Shown here piece after piece: positions 37,501 through 63,808 of a stretch of DNA of 64,000 bases (its first letter is position 1; every line of letters starts with the position of its first letter). The position numbers and the translations under genes are program-made. The DNA is from Bacteroidota bacterium (GTDB lineage: Bacteria; Bacteroidota; Bacteroidia; JABDFU01): contig JACPDY010000080.1 in assembly GCA_016183775.1 (NCBI GenBank), positions 1-64,000 on the forward strand. Reading direction: 5' to 3'. The notes beneath the pieces were generated by a model. It had not been told where the DNA came from. It saw only the letters and a program-made list of their open reading frames with translations, and did no database searches.

Positions 37501-37895
37501 TCATGCACTCATAATCGGTTGAAGTATGCTTACCCGGTTTCCTTCTGTATCAAAAAATGAAACATACTGTCCGATTCCCGGAATTTCCATAGGCTCTCCA
37601 AGTACTTTACCCCCGGCTGCGGAAACTTTTTAATATGTTCTTTAATGTCATCAACCGCTATTACCACCGAAGGATACTGAGCTGGTTGATTCGCTTCCTT
37701 TGGATAAAAACCTCCGTTAATAGCACCTGGAACTGTCGGCCTGCCATTTTTATTGGCTTCGGTTGTGGAAACAACTACATAGTTTCCCATCTCTTTGCCC
37801 ATAGACTGGGTATGCCAGCCAAATACATTTGTGTAAAAATCACTCATTCGTTTTGTGTCTTCTGCGGGTATTTCAAAATGTACTACTGGGTTCAT
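37501..37895 (-). pseudogene. VOC/glyoxalase-family protein with a frameshift
   Basis: The first 90 residues (MNPVVHFEIPAEDTKRMSDF, then YTNVFGW) are a normal VOC metal-dependent fold half. At about 37621-37628 the frame slips: the continuing frame ends in an unrelated 30-residue tail at 37530, while the alternative frame reads AAGGKVLGEPMEIPGIGQYV, then SFFDTEGNRVSILQP, the standard family ending, to a stop at 37501. Adding one base restores a 131-residue protein. Either the gene is broken or the assembly lost a base. The family includes glyoxalases, dioxygenases and resistance proteins; the substrate is unknown. Confidence 0.8.
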
Positions 37896-37978
37896 TTTTT
37901 TATGGTATTAATTTTTTAGGGTTTTACAAGCAAGGGTGAATGGGTAAGGGTATTTGTTTTTGAGGCATAGTTTTTAAA

Positions 37979-38830
37979 TTATTTCTTCTTTTTACCCTTA
38001 CTCTTTCTCACTTCTTTTAATACTTTTTTATTTTCTCCATCCAGCTTACGTTGTACCTTTTTCACATCATCGGCTACGGGTAAGTTTTCCGGTTGAATTC
38101 CTCTTTGTAAAAGCATTTTTCTTACAGCAGTACTATTATCAACATGTTCCTTTTCAATTGGAGTGTAACCTTTCAGGTCTTTATTTTGTACGTTCAGACT
38201 GGTCATTTCAGCAGCAAGATCTTTAGCTTTAATACCTATCGTGGGGAGAAAATCAGCTATAGGCCTGTTATCGGGCATACCCATTTTTCTTTTTAATTGT
38301 GATGTTGATAATCTGAAAAGAGCTTGATCGCCTTTTGAACGGATAATCGCAAACCCCTGGTTATCCACTCCACGTTCATAAAGAACTCCGGAGAGTTGTT
38401 TTTCTGTTTGGCTGAGTTTTTCACGTGCCTTAACACGTTCAAATTCCAGCATTCTTTGTTCAACTATTTCTGCACGACGGGTTTGAACAGCAAAGTAGTT
38501 TTGTGCAAAAGCAATTTCGGGTTTCCGGCTGTCACCATTTTGAGCGACGAGGTAACATCCATAACGTGTAAGCGCAATATCTTCAATGTTTCTCTCCGCT
38601 TCCGAACCTATTTCGACCATTTTCCTGACGTCAGGAAAATGGTTGGAGATTTCTTCACCGGCATGTTTACAGGATTCTTTCGCTTTATTAATTACTTTTT
38701 CAAAGTTCTCCCATTTACTATAACCCAATAATTGTTGAAGCTCTCGTCCACTCCAGCACTCTATACCTTCAATTTCCAATGCTGCGGATTCAAATTGTGC
38801 AAAAAGTTGTTGTATTTCTTCGGTTTTCAT
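37979..38830 (-). CDS. dinD: DNA damage-inducible protein D (DinD) family
   Basis: The 283-residue protein starts with a BRO-N-like domain (residues about 20-115: IECWSGRELQQLLGYSKWENF and then IEDIALTRYGCYLVAQNGD), followed by a helical region with VKAREKLSQTEK and a conserved KLGM-like region (LSTSQLKRKMGM, PIADFLPTI, KDLAAEMTS). E. coli DinD is SOS-induced and limits RecA filament activity; homologues occur in mobile regions. The protein ends in a lysine-rich tail (RKSKGKKKK). It stands alone, separated from the mks operon by a strong terminator, so it is unlikely to be part of that transcript. Confidence 0.88.
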   Translation of the reverse strand: MKTEEIQQLFAQFESAALEIEGIECWSGRELQQLLGYSKWENFEKVINKAKESCKHAGEEISNHFPDVRKMVEIGSEAERNIEDIALTRYGCYLVAQNGDSRKPEIAFAQNYFAVQTRRAEIVEQRMLEFERVKAREKLSQTEKQLSGVLYERGVDNQGFAIIRSKGDQALFRLSTSQLKRKMGMPDNRPIADFLPTIGIKAKDLAAEMTSLNVQNKDLKGYTPIEKEHVDNSTAVRKMLLQRGIQPENLPVADDVKKVQRKLDGENKKVLKEVRKSKGKKKK

Positions 38831-38976
38831 TTTTTCTATTTTTTATGGTTCATCAATTGAAATAACTCCATCGCTAAAGAATAGTAGGTGGGGGACGGGT
38901 AAGGGGGATGTGTTTTTTGGCATAATGGAAGTTATATATTTTGTTCCATTTACTTGGTAATAAAAGTGTATTCCAA

Positions 38977-39013
38977 AACAAAAGCCATCCGCAACTGCAG
39001 GATGGCTTTTGTT
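38977..39013. terminator. Bidirectional-looking terminator at the end of the mks operon
   Basis: AACAAAAGCCATCC and GGATGGCTTTTGTT form a perfect 14-base stem around a nine-base loop, with T-rich tracts on both strands. It starts 14 bases after the stop of the SMC-like gene (minus strand) and isolates that operon from dinD. Confidence 0.85.
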
Positions 39014-39027
39014 ACCTAAACAACAAT

Positions 39028-39903
39028 TTAATTATTCGTTATATCCGTATTTTCCGAGTTTTTAGCGGCTTTGCTATCCGTTTCAACTTCGGTGATATAA
39101 TCTTTCAGCAACTTCTTGGTATTCTTGGTTTTGAAGAAACTCATCGGCTGGTAATTGATGTCCTTGTCTTTTCCGCGCACCAGCATGTGCAGGAACCAAT
39201 GGTCTTCGGTATATGTACCGAAAGGTTTTGGTGTCATTGTCAGGAGCTGATAACCGAAATGCTCTGCTATTTGAGGGAACAGCCCGAAATTGGTATCATC
39301 GATGTTGGAAAGCTCCTCGATGATGATGAACTTAACACCCGGACGATCTTTTTCACGCTGAATAACTGACAAACGGCCTATACACAACAGTGCAAGCGCA
39401 GTGTAAGCCTGTCCGCCGGAGCCTGAGTATTTATTGCCTTTATCGTCAAACAGACCTACTTTAAGTTCGAAATAATATTTCGGGTTGAGGAGGTCTTCCA
39501 ACTCACAGTTACGTGCCTGGCTGAATGCCTGCGCGATGCTGATGATCAACGCATCCGGTGAGCTGTCGTTGGTGTTAATGCCTTGTATGTCGCTGAACAG
39601 GTCGGCACCAAAGCGTTGTACTTTGGCACGCTCGCGCATTTTCGATATCCAGTCGATGCTGATGTCTTTGCGGTCGTTGAAGTCGATTCGGAACGAGTAC
39701 CCGTGGCTGATCTTGTTCTCCTGGAAGAAGAAGTTCAGTTCAGTCACCAAACGGCGCAGGTTGGTGTATTGTTTCTCCACCTGCGAGAATACATTGATGA
39801 TGATGGCTACCTGAAGGTCGCCGAATTTCTTGATCTCTTCGTTGAGTTTAACAAGCTCAGGGGCCATGCCTTCCAGGGCCAGTTTGCCGCAAAGTATGCG
39901 CAC
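39028..39903 (-). CDS. mksB: MksB/JetC-like SMC ATPase, C-terminal part (after frameshift)
   Basis: This frame gives the C-terminal ATPase half of the SMC-like protein. In frame it reads back past the GTG at 39903 to about 39945 (NPELENDRFNFHTLVRILCGK), where it joins the upstream frame. The ABC-signature equivalent SGSGGQAYTALALLCIGR is near 39405-39435 and the Walker B segment KFIIIEELSNID near 39301-39335; note Glu-Glu rather than the usual Asp-Glu. With the N-terminal part the protein would have about 1085 residues. This part alone has no Walker A and cannot work as an ATPase. If the one-base shift is an assembly error, the two entries are one gene. Confidence 0.85.
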   Translation of the reverse strand: MRILCGKLALEGMAPELVKLNEEIKKFGDLQVAIIINVFSQVEKQYTNLRRLVTELNFFFQENKISHGYSFRIDFNDRKDISIDWISKMRERAKVQRFGADLFSDIQGINTNDSSPDALIISIAQAFSQARNCELEDLLNPKYYFELKVGLFDDKGNKYSGSGGQAYTALALLCIGRLSVIQREKDRPGVKFIIIEELSNIDDTNFGLFPQIAEHFGYQLLTMTPKPFGTYTEDHWFLHMLVRGKDKDINYQPMSFFKTKNTKKLLKDYITEVETDSKAAKNSENTDITNN

Positions 39904-42284
39904 AAGGGTATGGAAGTTAAAGCGGTCGTTCTCAAGTTCAGGGTTTTTCTGATCTTGCTTTCAGCTAACAGGTCTTCGAACTTAAATTCGGTTTCTGTTT
40001 CAAGCGCTTTACGTTTCTCTTCAAATATTTTGGCGAGTTTGTCAATTTCAACGCTCAGTTGTTTCTTGCGTTCTTTCGCGCTTTCAATAATCCCTTCATT
40101 CGAAATAATATTACGCTCGGCATTCTCTTTGCTTTCAATTAACAGCTCGATTTGGTTCCAGGTTTCGCTTTTGCGCGTTTTCAGGTCTTCAATACTTCTG
40201 TCAGCAAGAGTGGCCTCCAGGTCTTTGTTAGACTTTTTCGCGCTTTTGTAATTGCCGTCTAAGTAAGAAATATAGGTGATAAGGTCTTTGTTCACCACAT
40301 CCAGGTCAATGCGTAATTCCGTCTGGCGCTTGGTCAGTGAAGTAGCTTCATCGTTAGCCGACTTGTATTGTTCAGAAAGCGTATCGAATTTTTCAAGACT
40401 GCTGATGTTGTTCTCAATAAGCGGAACAATAGTTTCGTTCAACGCCTCATCAAATTCAAAGTTTTCAATTTCCTTGCGGTTATTATAGGCTTCAAGAGCT
40501 TCGGTATTAAATCCGATTTCGGTTAACTCGCGGTTAAGCGTGGTAATGGTTTCAAATTCAGTCTGTGCTTCTAAAATCTGCGATTTCAAATCAGTGCTGT
40601 CTTTTTGAATGGATGATTTGAGCGATTTGGCATTGTCGAATTTTTGCTTGGTAACAAAAGGAACAAACTCACGCAGTTCGCCCATAACCAACCAAACACC
40701 TTCTTTGGTCTCTTCAAAGCTGTTCATCAGTTTACCCGCATTGGTGGTGTAAACAGAGCCGGCTTCATTCTTTTTAGGTTTGCTGAGCATGATGTCTTTT
40801 AAGTGCATCAGCACAGTTTCCTGTCCTATTGTTAAAGCTTTCTTTTGATCAATTGCCCAATGTAAAAAGGTATCGGCGCCGGTGTCGCTTTGGTAAATGT
40901 CTAACAGGTTTTTGAGCGAAGCAATGGTTTGTGGAAGCTCGATGAGCTTTTGTTGGTAGGTCTCGTACGCTTCAGTATAGTTCTTTACCCATTCTGATTT
41001 TTCAAACGCTTCAAAACTTGAAATGCTTTTCAACGCGTCCAGCTTTTTCTTTTGTTCACGGATGCGTGCCTGGTCGGCCAGCTTTTTCTGGATCGCTTTA
41101 ACGTTTTTATATTTCTTGAAAACAGGAGCGATACTTTCCAACTGGCTCACAAGCCCCCAAAGCTTGTTGGCTTCCATACGCCTGATATCAATCTTCTCAT
41201 CTGTCAGGGTTGGCAGTTCATTTTCGAGTTTGTCTTTTAAAATATTTGTGGTCGCGATGATCTCCTGGTGCAGGCGGAGGATTGATTCGGCCTGCATTCT
41301 CACTTCATTCTCACTTTTCTTATAGCTGGTTAAAGCCGTATTCAGGCGGACCTCATTGTCTTCCGTGATATTTTGAGCGTCTAAATAAGTCAGTGAAGCA
41401 ACAACCGCATCCGCTTTCAGGTAATCGATCTTGCTGGTTGAAAAGCGTTCAAAAAGCACCTGCAGCGAAGTGAGTTTTGTTTGTTTCACTTCCAATTCGT
41501 CAATAAGCCGGCGGTTCTTGTTGTACTGGCGTATATAGCTTACCAGCTGATCTTTTTGTTCTTCAAAAATTTGTTTGATGATATCGTTGTCTTCAAACAA
41601 AAAATTCTGGAGGCTGCGGGAGTTATTGATATCAAGAGTTTTCGCACGCGCGAATGATTGTAAGATCTTCGCGTAGGTTTTCAGGTTGTTCTCTTTTGTC
41701 AGGTCGATGGGCACGAGTTGATTTTTGTACAACATCTCATAATACAGCTGGATCTCATCGTGGTTAACGAAATCTTTCAAATGAACATCATACTTATGCA
41801 ATAGCTGATCCTTAATTTGTTTCAGATCGAGAACCTGTTTTGCTTCATTTATGAAATCGGTTGCCTTTAAAGGTTTGCTGAAAGAGATCAGTGTTTTACT
41901 TTCAAAATCATCACCTTTTTGCACAATGAAAGGACGTACAGGCAAGCGTGAGTTTTTCGGTATATAGGCACCAATGGTAATGAAGTGCCCCTGGTAGCGC
42001 TCAATGTTTATAAAAGTGTAGGCATGGGTAACATAGTCTTTATTAAGCGGTATACCTTCAATACGGCGGTCGTTTTTGCCAACGCCTTCGGTACCGGGTT
42101 TCCACATGTCGCGCTTGGGAACAAAAATAAGCTGCATTAAGTCAGCAATGATGGATTTACCCAATCCGTTGTCACCGGTAAAGTCGGTGCGGGTGTGGTG
42201 AAGCAGGTAATCCGCATTGTTATGCTGGCGCACGCCAACTGTTGACAGCGAATAGATCCGGGGGTACTTGTTGTTCATTTCCAT
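39807..42284 (-). CDS. mksB: MksB/JetC-like SMC ATPase, N-terminal part (before frameshift)
   Basis: This frame of 825 residues has Walker A GDNGLGKS at residues 37-44 near the N-terminus, then long coiled-coil arms (about 230-470 and 560-760) around a hinge-like centre (about 475-560), as in MukB, MksB and JetC. It ends FEDLLAESKIRK followed by about 38 out-of-frame residues. At about 39945 one extra A in the run AGAAAAACCC would join it to the C-terminal ATPase half. These motors load onto or extrude DNA with a kleisin (MksF) and MksE. The gene follows mksE by 43 bases and ends the operon. Confidence 0.87.
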   Translation of the reverse strand: MEMNNKYPRIYSLSTVGVRQHNNADYLLHHTRTDFTGDNGLGKSIIADLMQLIFVPKRDMWKPGTEGVGKNDRRIEGIPLNKDYVTHAYTFINIERYQGHFITIGAYIPKNSRLPVRPFIVQKGDDFESKTLISFSKPLKATDFINEAKQVLDLKQIKDQLLHKYDVHLKDFVNHDEIQLYYEMLYKNQLVPIDLTKENNLKTYAKILQSFARAKTLDINNSRSLQNFLFEDNDIIKQIFEEQKDQLVSYIRQYNKNRRLIDELEVKQTKLTSLQVLFERFSTSKIDYLKADAVVASLTYLDAQNITEDNEVRLNTALTSYKKSENEVRMQAESILRLHQEIIATTNILKDKLENELPTLTDEKIDIRRMEANKLWGLVSQLESIAPVFKKYKNVKAIQKKLADQARIREQKKKLDALKSISSFEAFEKSEWVKNYTEAYETYQQKLIELPQTIASLKNLLDIYQSDTGADTFLHWAIDQKKALTIGQETVLMHLKDIMLSKPKKNEAGSVYTTNAGKLMNSFEETKEGVWLVMGELREFVPFVTKQKFDNAKSLKSSIQKDSTDLKSQILEAQTEFETITTLNRELTEIGFNTEALEAYNNRKEIENFEFDEALNETIVPLIENNISSLEKFDTLSEQYKSANDEATSLTKRQTELRIDLDVVNKDLITYISYLDGNYKSAKKSNKDLEATLADRSIEDLKTRKSETWNQIELLIESKENAERNIISNEGIIESAKERKKQLSVEIDKLAKIFEEKRKALETETEFKFEDLLAESKIRKTLNLRTTALTSIPLCAYFAANWPWKAWPLSLLNSTKRSRNSATFR

Positions 42285-42327
42285 TGATATAGTATTTCTA
42301 TAATTTACTTATACGGTTTACGATCTG

Positions 42328-42984
42328 TTAAAGAACTTGTTCGTGAATATATTCACTCATCAATTCAACATTTGCGATTTCATTCGCATATAATTTTCCG
42401 ATGCGCTCAATGGATGGCATGATCTCAAAATGAATATTTGTAGGGTCTATCCATTGTATCCATCCCAATTTGTCAAAAAGGTTAAGTGTGTGTTCGGCTC
42501 TGCGTTTTACTTCTTCTTTTTCGTGAGGAGTGTAATTGCGTTTCACTTCACCATAAAGCAGCTTTTGCCATAACTCACGGCTTTCGCTTTCGTCAAAAAG
42601 CTGCTCCAGGTTTTCCCATTTCATCTCTTTCTTTTCGAACATACGTTCCTTATAAACATTCAGGAGAAGGATGCCGAATATAACATGGCGGGGATCAAGT
42701 TCTTTGTAGCGGTCTTTTACAAAACGGCCATGACCATCTTCGGGGAAATCAAGATAAAAGTATTCATCGCGGTCATTGTTTTCTTTGCGCAGATATACGC
42801 CGAATAACTGCTCATAATATTTCGCGAGATCTTCATAATTGTCGTACAAATAGTCGAACAATTTTGAGTCAGCGCCATACTGTTGTATGTGGCGGCCTTG
42901 TTTCAACGTAAAGTCGGTTTCGGCAAAGTATTTTACCGCCGCTTCGCGTGTTAAGAATTCGAAGTTTGAATTTTCATTTTCCAT
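42328..42984 (-). CDS. mksE: MksE/JetB-like condensin subunit
   Basis: The 218-residue protein is acidic and mostly helical, with winged-helix-like segments; visible features include FLTREAAVKYFAETDFTLKQ near 9-28, a YF.LDFPEDG strand region near 75-85 (DEYFYLDFPEDGHGRFV) and a terminal ELMSEYIHEQVL. Size and position between the kleisin-like gene and the SMC-like ATPase fit MksE, the dimeric accessory subunit. It overlaps the upstream mksF gene by 34 bases. Assignment rests mainly on gene order and general similarity. Confidence 0.78.
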   Translation of the reverse strand: MENENSNFEFLTREAAVKYFAETDFTLKQGRHIQQYGADSKLFDYLYDNYEDLAKYYEQLFGVYLRKENNDRDEYFYLDFPEDGHGRFVKDRYKELDPRHVIFGILLLNVYKERMFEKKEMKWENLEQLFDESESRELWQKLLYGEVKRNYTPHEKEEVKRRAEHTLNLFDKLGWIQWIDPTNIHFEIMPSIERIGKLYANEIANVELMSEYIHEQVL

Positions 42985-44282
42985 AGTGCCAGGTCTTCTT
43001 TAGGGTAAAAAGGTTTTGTTTTATCAATTACAAATTCAATGTCTTTGTTTTTTCCATACCGCTGGATAAGTCCGAAACAAACGTCTATCGGAACTTCGAG
43101 ATTTTTCTCTTTTGCATAAATATTTTTGAACCAATCGTCAAACAGGATAGACTTACCTGCCATGAGGTCTTTGTTAATACTTTCAAGCCACATGGAAATA
43201 CTTTCCTGGCGGGCGAGCAGGTTGTAGTTTTGTTGTTCTTTCACTTTCAGGTATTCCGCATCGACAAGAAAGTCAGGTACATCCGCAGGTTCCACATTCG
43301 CGAAGTCGAGTTTAGGTATTTGTGGCAAGCGTGAACGATGATAAGGTATGCGTTTAGCCTGCATTGGTTCAGGTAATTTAAGATCTCCGTTCTCATCAGC
43401 TTTGGTGCCGCGTAACATGAACATAAGCAGTTTTTCCATTTTCAGTTTATACAGCTGCTTATACTGGAGTGTATCGTAAAGGGCTTTGAGGCGGCTAACT
43501 GACAGTTGAATGCGATCGTTGATAGAAAGCATGCGGTTATCAATGTTCTCAAAGAAACGCTCAATTTCCGAACGTATGCGGGTGTATTTTTCCCAAGCAT
43601 CTTTTTTATCAAGAAAATTTACTTCAGCGGCTTTAATGCTGTCGAAAATATTTTGTTTGAAGGTAAGCGTCTGCGTTAATCCTTCTGACTGGCGGCCAAG
43701 CTCTTCGAAAATATTAATGAAACTGGTGATGAGTCCTTTTGTGTTCTCAATATTATTCTTCATCAACTGGCGAAGCGCGATGGTGCGGTCGTCAACCATA
43801 CGTTGCAGATTTTCGGTATGTGAAAGCACCACTCTCCTGGAGGGTTGGTAGTGATTCAGGTACCAGTATTCGAATGTTTGTATGGACTTAAGGTCTTCGT
43901 CAACAAGCTGCAGGGTGCGTTTAAATGTGTGGATCAGTTCGATGTTCTCAAACTCAGGCTGGATTTCCTGAAGCATGATCCGAACCAGGTCGGTAGCGAA
44001 AACAGTAAGCTGGTAGCGGTATTCATTGCCGCGTTTAAGTGTTGTGTAAAAGTACTGGCTTAATTTTTTAGAGATATTCTCCGCTTGTATTTGCTTGTCC
44101 CGTGATATCGCTTCACTCACTTCGGCAACAGCCTGTTCAAAATCATGTTGTGTGAAGGCTTCATCGATCTCGTTGTTTTGTATTTTCCTGTACAACGCGA
44201 CAAGTATGAGTATCGGCTCCTGGCTTTGAGGTATTAAGGCCTCATAATGGGTCGAAACACTGCGTAAAAGGGTGTCTTGCAT
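42951..44282 (-). CDS. mksF: MksF/JetA-like kleisin subunit
   Basis: The 443-residue protein is nearly all helix. It opens MQDTLLRSVSTHYEALIPQS and carries several long coiled segments (about 60-120, 150-290), then a linker rich in Pro near 320-350 (KRIPYHRSRLPQIPKLDF) and a C-terminal winged-helix-like region with ICFGLIQRYG-like sequence (VCFGLIQRYGKNKDIEFV). Kleisins bridge the SMC dimer heads; MksF or JetA is the first gene of condensin-type Mks and Wadjet operons, as here. A TAAATTTG element (44297-44290, minus) lies eight bases before the ATG and could give a nearly leaderless transcript. No nuclease gene precedes or follows it. Confidence 0.8.
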   Translation of the reverse strand: MQDTLLRSVSTHYEALIPQSQEPILILVALYRKIQNNEIDEAFTQHDFEQAVAEVSEAISRDKQIQAENISKKLSQYFYTTLKRGNEYRYQLTVFATDLVRIMLQEIQPEFENIELIHTFKRTLQLVDEDLKSIQTFEYWYLNHYQPSRRVVLSHTENLQRMVDDRTIALRQLMKNNIENTKGLITSFINIFEELGRQSEGLTQTLTFKQNIFDSIKAAEVNFLDKKDAWEKYTRIRSEIERFFENIDNRMLSINDRIQLSVSRLKALYDTLQYKQLYKLKMEKLLMFMLRGTKADENGDLKLPEPMQAKRIPYHRSRLPQIPKLDFANVEPADVPDFLVDAEYLKVKEQQNYNLLARQESISMWLESINKDLMAGKSILFDDWFKNIYAKEKNLEVPIDVCFGLIQRYGKNKDIEFVIDKTKPFYPKEDLALWKMKIQTSNS

Positions 44283-44319: not shown

Positions 44320-44451
44320 ATTTAACAGTTCATTTCGGAACTGAACAAAAGTGCGAAAACACTGATACTTTGGTAGTTTTTCAGATACCGTACTTATCAG
44401 CAAGATATTAACAGAATTGGAATTTTGTGGATAAGGTGTTGATAACAATAG

Positions 44452-44580
44452 GTTCCGGGTTTAACGTTCCGGGTTCAAAGTTCAAGGTTCAATGTTCTGG
44501 GTTCAGAGTTCAAGGTTGGTGGGTTAGCAGTATTGTTAATTGAGGTTAAACCTTGAACTTTGAACCCGGAACTTTGAACT
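44452..44580. repeat. Degenerate heptamer array (GTTCAAA type) with inverted partner
   Basis: From 44467 the sequence runs in sevens: GTTCAAA, GTTCAAG, GTTCAAT, GTTCTGG, GTTCAGA, GTTCAAG. The complementary version (CCTTGAA, CTTTGAA, CCCGGAA, CTTTGAA) follows at about 44550-44580, so the whole can fold into a long hairpin. It fills most of the gap between mksF and the WbqC-like gene. Confidence 0.7.
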
Positions 44581-63576: not shown

Positions 63577-63650
63577 TTCCAACTTCCCACTTCCCACTTC
63601 CGACTTCCGACTTCCGACTTCCGACTCCTGACTTCCAACTTCCACTTGTC
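63577..63650. repeat. Heptamer array (ACTTCCG/C)
   Basis: About ten seven-base units run in series: ACTTCCC, ACTTCCC, ACTTCCG four times, ACTCCTG, ACTTCCA, ACTTCCA. It is non-coding and lies upstream of smpB. A related but more degenerate run is at about 47300-47395. Confidence 0.8.
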
Positions 63651-63771: not shown

Positions 63772-63808
63772 GCTAACTTTGAACTTTGAACTTCGAACTT
63801 TGAACATT
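63772..63808. repeat. Short GAACTTT-type heptamer run
   Basis: CTTTGAACTTTGAACTTCGA then ACTTTGAAC gives four to five seven-base units, the same unit as the inverted half of the array at 44467-44580. Otherwise 63651-63906 holds nothing recognisable. Confidence 0.65.

Follow-up and report, generated by a model that had tools for sequence, protein, structure and literature searches.

Dimers of the MksB ATPase form an ATP-driven DNA loop extruder together with the subunits MksF and MksE. In the Wadjet systems (JetABCD or MksBEFG), the role proposed for this motor is to reel in small circles and to trigger the JetD nuclease (PMC10586767). The MksBEF of Pseudomonas aeruginosa contributes to the organisation and segregation of the chromosome (PMC7485682, PMC10586767). 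A review considers that it probably originated from JetABCD through the loss of JetD, and suggests an origin in Wadjet-like defence for both MukBEF and MksBEF condensins (PMC10586767). MksBEF complexes have been described as sporadic, typically occurring alongside SMC-ScpAB or MukBEF (PMC7485682). As the example of P. aeruginosa indicates, a nuclease-free MksBEF is, as a kind, already known.

Here, we describe an mksF-mksE-mksB operon found in a stretch of 64,000 nucleotides from a Bacteroidota bacterium (assembly GCA_016183775.1, contig JACPDY010000080.1), referred to below as the window. The operon shares with the P. aeruginosa MksBEF the same three subunit families and the lack of MksG in the operon, but the latter coexists with Smc-ScpAB, whereas neither an SMC hinge nor ScpB was found here. 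Its likeness to Wadjet lies in the gene order F-E-B and in the closest outgroup loci, where mksB is immediately followed by a gene for a JetD-type toprim protein; unlike Wadjet, no JetD was found in either the operon or the genome, and occurrence is fixed and not sporadic. The MukBEF complex is approached through the MksB head and MksE, which match MukB and MukE by profile, and through MksF, which matches MukF by fold, although the proteins have diverged very far (the structural matches of MksF share 10-15% identity with it). With Smc-ScpAB, the operon would share a presumed analogous role as chromosomal condensin, but its genome gave no match to the corresponding profiles (PF06470 and PF04079). 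What is apparently new is a family-wide conserved and seemingly sole MksBEF in Bacteroidota, set amid JetD-bearing relatives and with more than one nuclease-free origin; a literature search found no description of such a Bacteroidota MksBEF, which is not proof of absence.

The operon and its subunits

The three genes occupy positions 39028-44282 of the minus strand, in an order also kept in relatives, with these features:

42951-44282, minus strand: mksF, kleisin subunit, 443 aa (open reading frame; AlphaFold model resembling MukF)
42328-42984, minus strand: mksE, KITE subunit, 218 aa (Pfam PF21980 MksE, 5.8e-18; family profile against MukE structures, 1.5e-11)
39957-42284, minus strand: 5' part of mksB, 776 codons still in the native frame, encoding the N-terminal ATPase head and coiled coil (family profile resembling the MukB head, 4.6e-8)
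42153-42176, minus strand: Walker A of MksB, GDNGLGKS
39955-39957, minus strand: deletion junction where 109 bp present in the same-genus genome G002 (locus L013) are missing, causing a frameshift (gapless alignments of 4335 bp and 957 bp on either side)
39028-39954, minus strand: 3' part of mksB in its native frame, 308 codons and stop, C-terminal ATPase head (GTG-start open reading frame from 39903)
39409-39426, minus strand: ABC signature of MksB, SGSGGQ
39313-39330, minus strand: Walker B of MksB, FIIIEE, with Glu replacing Asp (present in relatives with and without JetD)
38975-39013, minus strand: intrinsic terminator 3' of mksB (hairpin and T run; z-score -4.44)

A sequence-only reading of the window had reported the 443- and 218-aa reading frames, a 34-base overlap between mksE and mksF (42951-42984), a gap of 43 bases between mksE and mksB, and the three ATPase motifs listed above, and all of these were borne out. 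The surroundings are also as it described, with a strong terminator (z = -4.4) and dinD downstream, and a repeat array and a WbqC gene upstream. This array (44450-44525, between WbqC and mksF) is one of three heptamer-type tandem repeats noticed in the window, the others lying at 63577-63647 and 63775-63805; their units are GTTCAAA-like, TTCCGAC and AACTTTG. The dinD gene (37979-38830; NCBIfam 1.1e-99; PADLOC candidate PDC-S13) belongs to about 1 kb of DNA that is inserted between a glyoxalase gene and the terminator of mksB, and that L013 lacks.

The identity of the subunits had been proposed from the letters alone, and was upheld by profile and structural searches. MksE scores 66 bits against PF21980 (cut-off 27), and MksB combines the motifs with the match to MukB. 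For MksF, there was no Pfam match above cut-off and no usable match at the sequence level, and its AlphaFold model (pLDDT 75, pTM 0.41) finds MukF as its best structural match (Foldseek E 5.1e-8, probability 1.00). The matches were to MukB, MukE and MukF, so that the refuting case named by the sequence-only reading, an ATPase matching RecN/SbcC-type proteins only, does not apply. Curated models do not reach these proteins: the MukE models of Pfam and NCBIfam gave 16.8 bits (cut-off 25) and 14.6 bits (cut-off 250), those of MukB and MukF gave no match, and the PADLOC models of Wadjet did not recognise the subunits of this operon. Judging from the profiles and the predicted fold, all three subunits can be placed in the MukBEF/MksBEF superfamily.

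An interrupted mksB under purifying selection

The sequence-only reading took the ATPase for one reading frame and overlooked a frameshift. In relatives MksB is a single polypeptide, and the three same-genus genomes G001, G002 and G003 each encode it in one open reading frame of 1118-1123 aa (1121 aa in G002), whereas in this assembly mksB is made of two, in different frames (39807-42284 and 39028-39903). The window aligns to L013 without gaps over 4335 bp and 957 bp, and the 109 bp between these two blocks are absent. The N-terminal reading frame continues out of frame to position 39807, so that some 49 residues of its product are out of frame, and some 36 residues of the native protein are lost. 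A programmed frameshift at the junction was ruled out, since the 109 bp missing relative to G002 are more than a frame slip.

All three genes are under very strong purifying selection. A comparison of the window with G002 gives dN/dS values of 0.014 for mksF, 0.009 for mksE, 0.018 for the N part of mksB and 0.002 for its C part, where a single nonsynonymous difference stands against 84 synonymous ones. This range of 0.002-0.018 lies below the values of the adjacent patatin (0.042) and FecB-like (0.124) genes, and at or below that of the mutase gene (0.020). When amino-acid changes were polarised with G001 and G003 as reference, the N part of mksB showed four changes in the window and four in G002, and the C part none in either; changes are therefore rare, with no excess on the branch of the window. 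Because of this selection, we take the 109-bp deletion to have arisen either very recently or through an error of assembly. The neighbouring glyoxalase/VOC-like gene (37504-37934) is also frameshifted when compared with L013, by a single-base indel within an A run, which suggests that there are indel errors in this assembly.

The JetD nuclease in the window's relatives

The absence of a nuclease next to the operon, claimed earlier for the immediate neighbourhood, extends to the whole genome, where neither JetD_C (PF09983) nor our own JetD profile found a match, so that the idea of a hidden JetD elsewhere was rejected. In all, the JetD profile found nothing in 24 genomes (the window's, five of the same genus, and 18 with MksE and no neighbouring JetD), and recovered eight of the eight JetD-bearing genomes, which are its own source genomes.

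A JetD-type toprim gene does lie directly 3' of mksB in more distant Bacteroidota relatives. This fourth gene encodes some 280-325 aa, matches JetD_C in seven of the nine members scanned as well as the JetD1/JetD3 models of PADLOC, and keeps the E...DxD toprim residues; its product is predicted to fold like Corynebacterium glutamicum MksG (8b7f, 5.6e-6) and P. aeruginosa JetD (7til). The Wadjet-like loci of this kind in Bacteroidota are L020, L022, L067-L072, L089, L090, L094-L096, L099 and L101-L103. The MksF, MksE and MksB proteins tested from them had no match in PADLOC, and tools of this type probably miss such loci. In Saprospiraceae, L094 has a gene on the opposite strand between mksB and jetD, and L095 and L096 have unrelated genes between mksFE and mksB. 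L089 is a typical Bacteroidota MksFEB-JetD locus, but its contig (MTER01000033.1) bears the label Candidatus Altiarchaeales archaeon and is probably misbinned.

No consistent fourth gene adjoins the nuclease-free loci. A 643-aa reading frame 3' of mksB in G011 is not JetD-like, the JetD profile being negative in that genome, and is absent from other loci. The only traces of a JetD remnant near nuclease-free loci were two weak tblastn matches (E 0.014 and 0.036), which are not credible. The unusual Walker B was also dismissed as a mark of nuclease loss, since the Glu is found in the JetD-bearing L020, L067, L089, L090, L094-L096, L099 and L101-L103.

History of the probable nuclease loss

The phylogeny of 43 loci, obtained from concatenated MksF, MksE and MksB by a quick search, is unrooted and has long branches. 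The relatives of the window group together in a nuclease-free clade with 17 loci (SH-aLRT 100). The loci next to it carry JetD, come from Saprospiraceae, Dysgonomonadaceae and other groups, and connect with a support of 88-92. The sequence-only reading had raised the case of a toprim gene that is always present in homologous operons and was lost only here; such a gene is indeed present in more distant relatives, but its absence spans the whole 17-locus clade, so the loss would be older than this genome.

A second nuclease-free clade elsewhere and two single nuclease-free loci bring the changes on the 43-locus tree to four, and a reduced tree needs three. A single nuclease-free clade, and with it one single loss of JetD, was rejected by the AU test (p 0.0004), with the caution that quick, long-branched trees call for. 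Since the nuclease-free loci do not form one clade, JetD was probably lost repeatedly; the direction of change is our inference, as the root is not fixed and gain of JetD is also compatible with the tree. JetD distances correlate with those of MksFEB (r 0.85, Mantel p 1e-4), which would fit an old partnership followed by later losses.

Occurrence and genomic context

Two related families have the nuclease-free operon in all or almost all of their genomes, at conserved loci, whereas operons with JetD are sporadic. The nuclease-free operon occurs in seven of seven genomes of one family and in 11 of 12 of another, the single miss being 66% complete; the absence of JetD was checked in most of these genomes, not all. 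JetD-bearing loci are scattered over about seven of 31 genomes of their families, a figure resting on minimum denominators. The contrast between the two sets is significant (Fisher p 3e-6), with the proviso that genomes of a same family are not independent. Within the window's genus, four of six genomes have the operon, and MksE was not found in the other two, which are 56% and 72% complete. Families f44 and f27 each hold one complete genome without MksE.

In family f15, a dapF-like gene followed by the operon is seen in every genome whose flank is visible. In the window's genus the operon lies near glyoxalase, FecB-like, patatin and methylmalonyl-CoA mutase-type genes (names assigned by reading the sequences), and the mutase gene is also found near mksB in another family (G011). 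The search for plasmid-borne relatives gave no match in a plasmid collection that may hold few Bacteroidota plasmids, and so says little.

Some loci depart from the common layout. Family f37 (L021, L060-L065) harbours two different nuclease-free lineages: genus g135 has clade A, and genera g37 and g111 have clade B. This pattern suggests that one lineage was replaced by the other. In G159, mksFE and mksB sit on different contigs (L066 on C53 and L121 on C112) with unrelated genes after mksE, and the operon appears split.

Other SMC complexes in the class

Neither the SMC hinge nor ScpB was found in the window's genome or in the nuclease-free genomes tested, and as a control ScpB was detected in seven of seven hinge-bearing genomes tested. 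MksBEF is thus apparently the only SMC complex recognisable in this genome by profile searches. In a survey of 396 genomes of the class, MksE occurs in 26, the SMC hinge in 96, and both in only one (G044, which has JetD); a profile of the MksB C-terminal head retrieves essentially the same genomes as MksE. An overlap of one genome, where about six were expected (p 0.006), is phylogenetically clumped, so that mutual exclusion of Mks and Smc is not taken here for strong evidence. Moreover, 275 of the 396 genomes have neither hinge nor MksE, and seven of the eight surveyed JetD-bearing genomes also lack Smc; absence of Smc is so common in the class that the notion of MksBEF having replaced Smc is weakened. 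The 275 genomes with neither system are in line with Hi-C work noting that no condensin has been identified in Bacteroides (PMC10197239).

A condensin derived from a defence system?

The best reading of these data, to which we give a probability of roughly 0.7, is that of a Wadjet-derived, nuclease-free MksBEF that now serves as the sole recognisable chromosomal condensin. MksF as kleisin and MksE as KITE subunit would close a dimer of the MksB ATPase to give an SMC complex of the MksBEF type, whose JetD-bearing, Wadjet-like ancestor would have lost its nuclease. Its present role would be that of a condensin that forms loops in the host chromosome, in a lineage where Smc-ScpAB is not detected. 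We infer both the loop extrusion and this chromosomal function; a motor without JetD could organise a chromosome, as reported for P. aeruginosa MksBEF.

The sequence-only reading had left a choice between a nuclease-free condensin and a defence system with an unknown effector, and the comparative evidence favours the former. Silencing or compaction of foreign DNA without cutting is a proposal made for Smc5/6, and the operon could likewise act against plasmids or phages in that manner, or through another effector encoded elsewhere. The motor belongs to the same family as that of Wadjet, JetD-bearing and JetD-free members have their ATPase motifs in common, and the nearest outgroups carry JetD directly 3' of mksB. 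We nevertheless consider such a defence role unlikely, because the operon is fixed across whole families and not sporadic, its neighbourhood is conserved, its dN/dS is very low, no consistent fourth gene accompanies it, no JetD homologue lies elsewhere in these genomes and no other SMC complex was found.

The broken mksB raises two further explanations. To one of them, a complex functional in relatives and dead here as a decaying remnant, we grant a slightly smaller chance than to defence: the deletion has clean edges, flanked by sequence that aligns without gaps, and leaves mksB as two reading frames, but neither the halves of mksB (four and zero changes) nor mksE and mksF show relaxation on the window branch, the A-run indel in the glyoxalase gene suggests errors in the assembly, and the searches revealed no further SMC complex as a possible substitute. 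That the two polypeptides assemble into a working split MksB is hardly credible, given the out-of-frame tail and missing native residues of the N part and the single reading frame in same-genus genomes, even though the reading frame of the C-terminal head, with its GTG start codon at 39903, shows extreme conservation, and P. putida is reported to have a split mksB (PMC10123090).

Returning to the nuclease-free condensin, its extension to the phylum is an even bet: in Bacteroidota, an anti-plasmid defence complex may have become the only chromosomal condensin, through at least two independent losses of JetD, in lineages without Smc-ScpAB. One class offers relatives with and without JetD, the latter fixed in families and apparently without Smc, and therefore the switch from defence to condensin becomes testable in related backgrounds.
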